From Burkholderia sp. BCC0506 (GTDB taxonomy: Bacteria > Pseudomonadota > Gammaproteobacteria > Burkholderiales > Burkholderiaceae): 64,000 nt of DNA. Under the pieces are notes generated by a model. It was not told where the DNA came from and did no database searches. It was given only the letters and a program-made list of their open reading frames with translations. Of this stretch, positions 4,200 to 40,376 are shown piece by piece (position 1 is the stretch's first letter; the number at the start of each line of letters is the position of its first letter). Location: the NCBI RefSeq assembly GCF_902833145.1, contig NZ_CADFEN010000006.1:310001-374000 (forward strand), in the 5' to 3' direction. A program made the translations under genes and the position numbers.

Positions 4200-4705
4200 T
4201 GCTGGTCTCCTTGGTGAAAAGAATGCCCGAGCGGGCGCGCCGGCTCGCGAACGACCCGGCGGTCAAACGGCTGCGGCGCGAACGGACACGCGCGCATCGG
4301 TGCGATGCGCGCGCACGCGTTCATCGCCGGGCCGGCGATAGCGGTATGTGAAGGATGGGTGCGCGCAACGTACGCGTTGCGACACGAAACGGATGGGCAA
4401 TGCAATACGCGACAGGCTCGCGTGCGCCGGTTACCCCGTTGTTCTGATTGCTGCGCTGTTGATCGCGCATGATACGGCCCCGTATGTGATTTTTCGCGAT
4501 CATACCAAGTCCGCTTATCGAGACGGGGATTCTTGAAAAGAATTGACGAATTTCCGACAGGTACGAAACACGCGATTGGCGCCGGCGCGCAGCCGCATAC
4601 GGGAAGTCGGCATTGCCGTGAATGCGACATCGATCGACGGACGCGCATCCCGGCATTCGAGCCGCACGCGCGCGTGCATCGGTGCAAACGCGCGTGCGAT
4701 TGCCG
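4200..4705. other. Intergenic region upstream of the csgG-like operon
   Basis: No credible gene was seen. The stretch 4430-4560 is AT-richer than its surroundings and probably holds the promoter of the minus-strand lipoprotein operon. A short GCCCGagcGGGC hairpin lies near 4224. The left edge of the palindromic element forms the right boundary. Confidence 0.5.
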
Positions 4706-4998
4706 CTAGGGCCTGTTCACGCTAATAACGGGCTTGCGCTGGCCGCCAGAAGGGCCGAGCGCAAGGATTGCGACGAAGCGAATACTCGACGTATTCGCGA
4801 GGAGCATGACGCGGCGATCGGCCCTTCTGGCGGCCAGCCCCACGAACGATTTTCTCCAAACAGGGGAACGTGCCTTTCCGCCCGCATGGCGGCGTCGTTC
4901 GTCGTTGCAATAGCTACGGCTATTGCGCCTCCTCTCTCCTTGCCCTGCGGGCGGAAAGGCACGTTCGCAAGCCCGTTATTAGCGTGAACAGGCCCTAG
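4706..4998. mobile_element. MITE-like palindromic element with CTAG target duplication and two structured lobes
   Basis: Perfect 33 bp inverted ends (4706-4738 and 4966-4998) begin CTAGGGCCTGTTCACGC. The outermost CTAG is itself palindromic and present at both ends, so it is best read as a 4 bp target duplication around a 285 bp element with 29 bp terminal repeats. Inside are two stem-loop lobes. Lobe A (4739-4837) has a 20 bp stem, 19-nt flanks and an 8 bp hairpin (GCGAATAC/GTATTCGC). Lobe B (4867-4965) has a 20 bp stem, 19 and 20-nt flanks and an 8 bp hairpin (GCAATAGC/GCTATTGC). Lobe B read in reverse complement aligns with lobe A. There is no transposase, so any movement would need one in trans, probably from a CTAG/TA-targeting IS5-like group (inference). 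Confidence 0.75.
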
Positions 4999-6350
4999 TC
5001 GGCCACCTTCTGCCGCATCGTCACGAACTCCTCGGCCGCGGTCGGGTGAATGCCGATCGTGTCGTCGAACTGCGCCTTCGTCGCGCCCGCGCGAATCGCG
5101 ATCGCGATGCCCTGGATGATCTCGCCCGCGTCGCGGCCGACCATGTGCGCGCCGACCACGCGCTGGCTGTCGCGCGCGACGACGAGCTTCATCAGCGTGC
5201 GCTCGTCGCGGCCCGACAGCGTGTGGCGCAGCGCCTTGAACGACGTGCGGTAGATATCGACGTCGCCGTGCGCGTGACGCGCATCGGCTTCGCTCAGGCC
5301 GACCGTCGCGACCTCGGGCTGGCTGAATACGGCCGACGGCACGTACGCGTGATCGACCGCCACGCGCGACCCGCCGAACAGCGTGCGCGCGAGCAAGCCG
5401 GCGTCGCGCGTCGCGACCGGCGTGAGCTGCGGCCGCGACGTGACGTCGCCGATCGCGTGGATCGACGGCACCGACGTCGCCGAATACGCATCGACGGCAA
5501 TCGCGCCGCGCGCATCGAGCAGGATGCCCGCCTGCTCGAGCCCGATCCCGTCGACGTTCGGCACGCGGCCCGTCGCATAGAGCACCTGATCGTACGGCCC
5601 GTGCCGCACGTCGCCGACGCGCACGGACAGCGTGCCGTCGCTCGCGCGCTCGATCGACTCGATCACCGCGCGCGGATGAATCGTGACGCCCTGCTTCGTC
5701 ATCTCGTCGGTCAGGAACTGGCGCACGTCGTCGTCGAAGCCACGGAGGATTTTCTCGCCGCGATAGAACACGTCGACGTGACTGCCGAAGCCATTGAAGA
5801 TGCCCGCGAACTCGACCGCGATATAGCCGCCGCCGACCACCGCGATGCGCCTGGGCAGCGCCGCGAGCGACAGCGCCTCGCGCGACGTGATCGCGTGCTC
5901 GATGCCGGGCCGCGGCGGCAGCACCGGACGCGAGCCGGTCGCGATCGCGATGTGGCGTGCGCGGATCGTGCGCGCGCCGATCGCGACCGTATGCGCATCG
6001 ACGAGCGTCGCGCGGCCGGCGTGCATGTCGACGCCCGATTGCCGCAGCAGGTTGATGTAGATGTCGCTCAGCCGGTTGATCTCGCGATCCTTCGCGGCGA
6101 TCAGCGCGGGCCAGTCGAGCGTGCCGGCGCCGAAGGTCCAGCCGAAGCCCTTCGCGTCCTCGATTTCGTGCGGATAGTGCGATGCATAGACGAGCAGTTT
6201 CTTCGGGATGCAGCCGCGCAGCACGCAGGTGCCGCCGATCTGCTCTTCTTCCGCGATGCCGACGCGCGCGCCGTATGACGCGGACATGCGCGCGAGCCTC
6301 ACGCCGCCCGAGCCGGCGCCGATGACGAACAGGTCGTAGTCGAAATCCAT
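4995..6350 (-). CDS. gor: Glutathione-disulfide reductase
   Basis: 451-residue class I pyridine nucleotide-disulfide oxidoreductase that reduces GSSG to GSH with NADPH in the cytosol. Seen: FAD-binding GAGSGG at residues 11-16, redox-active disulfide GGTCVLRGCIPKK (Cys42/Cys47), NADPH-domain motif VVGGGYIAVEFAG, the second FAD motif IHAIGDVT, and C-terminal HPTAAEE with the catalytic His435-Glu440 pair. The VLRGCIPKK form and length are typical of proteobacterial Gor rather than lipoamide dehydrogenase. Its TAG stop (4997-4995) lies inside the CTAG duplication of the adjacent element, so the element inserted exactly at the end of the gene without changing the protein. Confidence 0.93.
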   Translation of the reverse strand: MDFDYDLFVIGAGSGGVRLARMSASYGARVGIAEEEQIGGTCVLRGCIPKKLLVYASHYPHEIEDAKGFGWTFGAGTLDWPALIAAKDREINRLSDIYINLLRQSGVDMHAGRATLVDAHTVAIGARTIRARHIAIATGSRPVLPPRPGIEHAITSREALSLAALPRRIAVVGGGYIAVEFAGIFNGFGSHVDVFYRGEKILRGFDDDVRQFLTDEMTKQGVTIHPRAVIESIERASDGTLSVRVGDVRHGPYDQVLYATGRVPNVDGIGLEQAGILLDARGAIAVDAYSATSVPSIHAIGDVTSRPQLTPVATRDAGLLARTLFGGSRVAVDHAYVPSAVFSQPEVATVGLSEADARHAHGDVDIYRTSFKALRHTLSGRDERTLMKLVVARDSQRVVGAHMVGRDAGEIIQGIAIAIRAGATKAQFDDTIGIHPTAAEEFVTMRQKVAD

Positions 6351-40042: not shown

Positions 40043-40264
40043 CTCCGTTGGTGCAATCGCCGCGGCTTCGCCGTCTGTCGATTCACCCCCCGAAACCGTC
40101 TTGCGACGGTGACCGGAAAAATATTCCGGATTAAAAAACGTCCGCCGCCGCCCGATCACTGCCTTCCCCGGTCAGACGACGGAACGTCGCTTATGTGCAA
40201 GTCGGCTTGCATGCATGTGTTGTGCGACGACGATTGGCCCCGCCGTGCATGCCGCCTCTCCGCG

Positions 40265-40289
40265 GCCGGCACGTGCTTCACGTGCCGGC
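40265..40289. repeat. 11 bp inverted repeat with 3-nt loop
   Basis: GCCGGCACGTG (40265-40275), CTT, CACGTGCCGGC (40279-40289). No adjacent U tract; role unknown. Confidence 0.75.
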
Positions 40290-40330
40290 GACGCTCACCC
40301 CGCGCTTTATTTTTGCTACCCCGTAGAACT

Positions 40331-40376
40331 TATCTATTCTTTTCATTTTTTCAACTTGTGGGGTGAAGAATAGATA
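40331..40376. promoter_or_regulatory. AT-rich inverted repeat in the pxpA-traB gap
   Basis: TATCTATTCTT (40331-40341) and AAGAATAGATA (40366-40376), 24 bp apart. This could be an operator pair or an mRNA stem. It contrasts sharply with the local GC-rich background. Confidence 0.45.

Follow-up and report, generated by a model that had tools for sequence, protein, structure and literature searches.

Correia/NEMIS and RUP are examples of bacterial MITEs. Covarying stems are usually read as proof of a selected fold. An excerpt of PMC10969869 describes bacterial MITEs as short, non-coding elements with terminal inverted repeats, target duplication, many copies and deletion derivatives, all of which are found for the 293-bp element of Burkholderia sp. 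BCC0506 reported here. It differs from the MITEs of that excerpt in having two nested, inverted-related lobes and matched changes in every long stem. The IS427 group, as outlined in part of PMC3281130, is recognised by two overlapping frames, 2-bp duplications and a length of about 830–865 bp. IS427-group ISs (NF033580; the Paracoccus elements of that source) have ends, a 2-bp duplication and CTAG-like sites in common with the element. An IS427-like IS found in this work, L208, likewise has two overlapping frames. However, no gene of its own was found in the element, and the perfect 30–33 nt arms of the element contrast with the imperfect 13–21 nt repeats given for the group in the same extract of PMC3281130.

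Template switching between inverted repeats homogenises arms and inverts spacers, according to an extract of a study of yeast genes (PMC8604942), and mimics compensatory change in RNA genes, according to an extract of another (PMC8794818). The template-switched repeats of both sources, in yeast genes and RNA hairpins respectively, resemble the element in arm homogenisation and spacer inversion. The element differs in its interior of ~230 nt, compared with spacers of ≤70 nt in the excerpted yeast study (PMC8604942), and in being dispersed bacterial mobile DNA. REPIN/RAYT systems, the topic of PMC3116915, are likewise dispersed, intergenic palindromes, but the element has DDE-type IS ends and a target duplication, and no associated Y1 transposase was found.

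The window is a 64,000-nt stretch of contig NZ_CADFEN010000006.1, in which positions 4706–4998 form a nested palindrome of 293 bp consisting of 33-bp terminal repeats and two 99-nt hairpin lobes. The CTAG at the left end (4706–4709) is the target site, with TA or CTAG duplicated at insertion as seen from element-free orthologous sites. The CTAG at the right end (4995–4998) is the second target copy and contains the neighbouring gene's stop codon. The terminal arms are perfect over 33 nt (4706–4738 and 4966–4998), slightly longer than the 29-bp terminal repeats given in the preliminary description. Counted as 30 nt, the left arm spans 4709–4738 (+ strand), the first ~14–17 nt of which resemble the ends of IS5-family ISs, and the right arm (4966–4995, − strand) is its perfect reverse complement. 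Lobe A (4739–4837, + strand) has an outer stem of 20 bp, with a further 3 bp past one mismatch, and an inner hairpin (4778–4785/4791–4798) of 8 bp with a 5-nt loop. An A/T-richer spacer (4838–4866) separates it from lobe B (4867–4965, − strand), which has an outer stem of the same 20 bp plus 3 bp past one mismatch and an inner hairpin (4907–4914/4919–4926) of 8 bp with a 4-nt loop. The coordinates, the two 99-nt lobes, the 20-bp outer stems and the 8-bp inner hairpins with 5- and 4-nt loops are all as the preliminary description had given them.

In their inner parts the two lobes are related as inverted versions of each other. The alignment of the inner lobe parts that had been proposed earlier holds over the inner 59 nt, where the inverted relation scores 35 against a shuffle maximum of 32 (0/500). 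The outer stems of the two lobes have no detectable relation (54/500 shuffles as good), and the compensatory change claimed between them is not demonstrable from one copy. Folding gave z −16.9 for the + strand as DNA and z −16.2 for the − strand as RNA, in each case far beyond chance with 0/200 shuffles as good.

The element is flanked by the upstream region of a gene judged by eye to be lipoprotein-like and by the 3′ end of gor, the glutathione-disulfide reductase gene (4995–6350, − strand). This is a host gene outside the element, although its TAG stop overlaps the right end. A protein-coding role for the element was rejected as frames are not kept among copies, the longest open stretch per frame dropping to 26–43 aa in some of 60 copies, and the 121-aa frame crossing the element is without a Pfam match. 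A known RNA family was rejected as no Rfam family covers the element at gathering score. Elsewhere in the window, Rfam RF02690, the Burkholderia small RNA BTH_s1, is matched in full at positions 40129–40333 on the − strand (128.7 bits). A terminator or promoter role was also rejected, with no terminator-like or sigma-70-like site in a consensus scan of positions 4500–5200 and no enrichment of convergent gene pairs. Among 96 classified element sites, 69 lie between tandem genes, 13 between convergent and 14 between divergent genes, orientations that are approximate as genes were called by codon-position GC; 5′ distances were left unused.

The element is one copy of a dispersed, non-coding family. 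A search for further copies, as the preliminary description had advised, found a multicopy family with matches in 36 of 37 Burkholderia genomes, its own included, and a weak match (E 3.5e-4) in one of 24 genomes of other families, giving 37 of the 61 genomes searched. Its own genome holds three full first-subfamily copies (100, 99 and 89% identical), as well as several partial or second-subfamily copies. Two of the full copies are 99% identical and occupy different sites. Relatives are found in five of 72,556 plasmid or chromid records, from Burkholderia, Caballeronia, Paraburkholderia and Cupriavidus, and a 27-base arm pattern occurs in 69 stretches of the species collection, of which 64 are titled Burkholderia and 5 Paraburkholderia. 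Carriage by phages or viruses was rejected, since the phages searched gave no family match and the exact arm pattern is absent from viral contigs. Among the matches listed from the open-licence literature, no title or abstract start names this Burkholderia element.

Two subfamilies can be distinguished by their arms (GGGCCTGTTCACGCTAATAACGGGCTTGCG versus AGGGTCTGTTTACATACGGAACGCACATGCG), with the lobe plan common to both. Of 115 loci examined for arms, seven were without an inverted repeat by the test used (L051, L052, L087, L125, L143, L145, L147) and three gave a lobe only (L139, L142, L164). L125 is a full-length copy with decayed arms. Variant forms include single-lobe copies, long copies with extra hairpin modules and one-arm remnants. 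L143 and L145, both single-lobe, and the lobe-less L070 have a full left arm and a short right end joined to the spacer, and these forms may still be mobile. Longer copies of 316–347 nt are found at L029, L105, L121, L122, L124, L127, L128, L129 and L133. An extra hairpin module, GTCCCCCAAGGGGAC, is present in lobe B of L125 and L059, the latter being the same place as L122, and the extra lobe B module of the long copies indicates that hairpin modules vary among copies. At L137:1007–1284 lobe A alone is inverted relative to lobe B. The main alignment (A1) holds 60 of the 75 first-subfamily copies of at least 270 nt, namely those 280–300 nt long, with the close relatives L028 and L085 both kept; alignment A2 omits L053, which is the same place as L167.

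The first lead to the origin of the family was a weak arm match (E 9) in a Pseudomonas plasmid, which proved to be the end of an IS5-family IS. These ISs end near (C)TAGGGC(C/G)TGTTMACRC, a few ends being off by 1–3 bases, and lie at CTAG- or TTAG-like sites. Such ends are present at 8 of 9 plasmid loci, spaced 811–832 bp apart, and at 8 of 13 Burkholderia loci with a spacing of 801–817 bp. The two overlapping frames of one such IS, L208 (1486–1908 and 1803–2258), match NF033580 (transpos_IS5_3), PF13340 (DUF4096) and PF01609 (DDE_Tnp_1); against NF033580 the first frame scores 103.9 bits, just below the cut-off of 110, and the second scores 135.9, above it. The name IS427-like is based on traits, namely frames, duplication and length, and not on ISfinder. 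The ends of the second subfamily, AGGGTCTGTTTACAT, match a second IS lineage ending in GGGTCTGTTTACATTCG, which was found at two of 30 Burkholderia IS5_3 loci inspected (L357 and L365). L357 has a single open frame of 264 aa. As judged from sequence, the two subfamilies fit the ends of two IS lineages.

A search for an IS with the same ends, also advised in the preliminary description, thus led to IS5-family (IS427-like) ISs. Since the element shares its ends with these ISs at CTAG-like sites, it is read as their non-autonomous MITE, and they would be the agents of its movement. In its own genome, a nucleotide search gave no IS with the element's ends, and one of the five IS5_3 matches there was inspected. 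No transposase was seen beside copies at 15 loci read by eye over ~420 nt each.

Orthologous sites without the element reveal the target. At the gor stop, L171 has a single CTAG and L172 a single CTAA where the window has CTAG-element-CTAG, so that the element-free junctions read ..CTAG-TCGG and ..CTAA-TCGG, respectively, with a left flank similar to that of the window (47/60 nt). Among the loci of 29 other genomes, 19 have CTAG at the gor stop; 27 of the 29 are without the element, and two (L169 and L193) carry short remnants. These remnants at the CTAG of the window copy suggest either repeated insertion into the site or its old occupancy. At another locus, a second-subfamily copy is full in 8 of 65 genomes, with 19 element-free loci read. 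TA is found on both sides in 48 of the 99 copies parsed from 102 (25 CTAG, 14 TTAA) and on at least one side in 71 of 99, compared with a background of 1.3%. At the older L163 site no target duplication is visible. Short, non-coding and bounded by terminal inverted repeats, the element occupies many sites, with element-free orthologous sites and target-site duplication, as is characteristic of MITEs.

The covariation of the stems is real between copies. In the 60-copy alignment 95.9% of stem cells are paired, and two-sided changes affect 38 of the 89 stem pairs, compared with a shuffle mean of 13.2 (0/500 as high) and 2–9 in slid versions. The 20 second-subfamily copies give the same picture, with two-sided change at 25 of 71 pairs. 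Their terminal stem has 16 such pairs out of 30 and none that varies on one side only, although one of five covariation measures (further pair types) was unexceptional in this subfamily, being reached by 63 of 500 shuffles. On a copy tree, the terminal stem shows 32 two-sided branch changes, of which 31 are complementary, compared with 21 one-sided and with 1–2 in slid controls; arm positions 1–3 were excluded from the tree counts, arm limits having been set by pairing. Terminal branches account for 20 of these two-sided changes and 18 of the one-sided. The counts are 14 against 19 in the lobe A outer stem, 28 (23 complementary, 5 not) against 64 in the lobe B outer stem and 0 against 6 in the lobe A inner hairpin, with 0–4 in slid controls over stems; recombination can distort such copy trees, and with few taxa parsimony is in part arbitrary.

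Transversions make up 17 of 32 two-sided changes in the terminal stem and 35 of 74 over the three long stems, an excess that is not significant (p 0.17 for the terminal stem; 0.087 for all stems). Mismatch cells on the + strand are divided between G-T and A-C at 8 and 6 in the terminal stem, 7 and 6 in the lobe A outer stem and 5 and 1 in the lobe A inner hairpin. In the lobe B outer stem there are 59 A-C cells, 43 of which fall at two pairs, and 6 G-T cells. The terminal arms of 43 of the 60 copies have no mismatch in 30 pairs, with one in 15 copies and two in 2, whereas a single arm differs between copies by a mean of 1.84. Arms are flawless in 43 copies despite 21 different left arms; two arm types make up 34 of the 60 copies. 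Ten Watson-Crick pair types in the terminal stem are found in just one of 60 copies. The 99% identical second copy, L002, has three differences from the window copy, two of which are the partners 4878/4954 in lobe B, C/G in the window copy and G/C in L002; the states of this pair recur in other copies. Unlike the longer stems, the lobe A inner hairpin (4778–4798) is nearly unchanged in both subfamilies, and a protein-binding or other sequence role is possible for it.

At one site with eight orthologous copies, each of the 4 two-sided changes is a complementary transversion; one-sided changes number 19 and slid controls give at most 1, with some branch assignments arbitrary. One A-T/C-G exchange occurs twice at one pair among these eight. 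The terminal-arm sites of L003/L034, L047/L126/L133 and L153/L165 show 4 two-sided and 4 one-sided changes, and in L153/L165 two close changes are each present in both arms. Seven other orthologous groups have 0 two-sided and 7 one-sided terminal-arm sites in total. Of 11 orthologous sites represented by at least two copies, 4 have copies whose interiors face opposite ways with respect to the flanks. L152 and L159 have an unusual arm and lobe sequence in common yet are flipped, and for this reason the simplest reading is that one copy was flipped in place. The other flipped sites may each have received separate insertions at the same place, particularly L044/L132 and L111/L128, in which the arms differ too.

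We consider it likely that the element is an IS5-family (IS427-like) MITE whose stems were matched largely by template switching after insertion, and whose matched copies spread by transposition. On the evidence of ends and sites, an IS5-family transposase would act in trans by recognising the outer ~14–17 bp of the element ends, and insertion would take place at TA with a preference for CTAG or TTAA, often at stop codons. A replicated strand would then fold, allowing one arm to template the other; such template switching would carry a change from arm to arm and sometimes invert the interior. Copies with two matching ends would be those that spread by transposition. One-sided changes outnumber two-sided changes between orthologues, which indicates that over such times homogenisation does not prevail and that matched arms family-wide may owe much to the spread of master copies. 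Spread of matched copies must also have contributed to the flawless arms seen throughout the family.

Ectopic gene conversion between copies, which would swap both arms of a stem together and mimic compensation, is an unlikely source of the matched changes. The family is multicopy and some two-sided states, such as those of 4878/4954, recur in several copies, making conversion from another copy possible in those cases. The variation of hairpin modules, as though exchanged, and the repeated A-T/C-G exchange among the eight orthologues are also consistent with it. However, the ten Watson-Crick pair types confined to one copy argue against a donor, as do the states of L153, L165, L126/L133, L047 and L132, which are found at no other locus of the set, itself an incomplete sample of copies. 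Gene conversion alone would also not invert the interior. Amplification of a few perfect palindromes as master copies, spread by transposition with no later homogenisation, appears quite unlikely as the only process. The predominance of two arm types and the commoner one-sided changes between orthologues speak for it, but two-sided differences are present at orthologous sites with the same insertion, and terminal branches of the copy tree carry two-sided changes in the terminal stem about as often as one-sided.

Selection on a folded RNA, such as an mRNA 3′ end or small RNA, or on folded DNA, for the host or for mobility, with changes compensated stepwise, is improbable as the cause of the matched stems. 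The preliminary description had read the covariation in this way. Its conserved structured element has been upheld in its many copies, covarying stems and ISs with the same ends, but selection on the fold does not stand as the leading reading. Strong covariation in both subfamilies and the near-constant sequence of the lobe A inner hairpin are in its favour, and the predominant A-C cells of lobe B would be G-U on the other strand. As the lobe B mismatches would be G-U on the − strand and lobe A keeps the sequence of its inner hairpin, the lobes may have a function. Furthermore, an element end is no more than 12 nt away from 36 of 98 facing gene 3′ ends, but this association is also expected from the CTAG/TTAA target, which often overlaps stop codons. 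The location of sites mainly between tandem genes, by the approximate gene calls, the blank consensus scan and Rfam search at gathering score, and the many orthologous sites without the element weigh against a selected fold.

Matching by template switching accounts better for the changes than a selected fold because two-sided changes occur between orthologous copies that were already inserted. It is also favoured by the transversions among these changes, as a transversion within a pair cannot pass through a G-U step, by the terminal-stem mismatches, which are without wobble bias, and by the interior orientations found at 4 of 11 orthologous sites. Arms probably stay matched by recopying one from the other, and not by the need for a folded RNA.

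A REP/REPIN-type element moved by a Y1 (RAYT) transposase is very improbable, since, although the element is palindromic, mostly intergenic and has CTAG at its foot, and the genome holds a Y1_Tnp-like gene, the ends match DDE-type IS5-family ISs, the target is duplicated and no element-like palindrome was seen by eye beside that single gene. The gene is at G000:C16:93022–93312 (L084), with an open frame of 273 aa.

It is tentatively proposed that the stems are proof-read in place by template switching, in which case a selfish element might keep a perfect nested palindrome for long without host function, with both ends changing together to suit a new transposase. If the stems are proof-read in this way, strong covariation would arise from mutation and would mislead tests of RNA structure. 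Paired changes, unpaired steps and inversions of the interior can be counted in many orthologous and paralogous copies of this family. With copies countable in this manner, the shares of mutation, through arm-templated copying, and of selection become separable in natural bacterial DNA. The family is also a marker of past IS5-type activity in Burkholderia.
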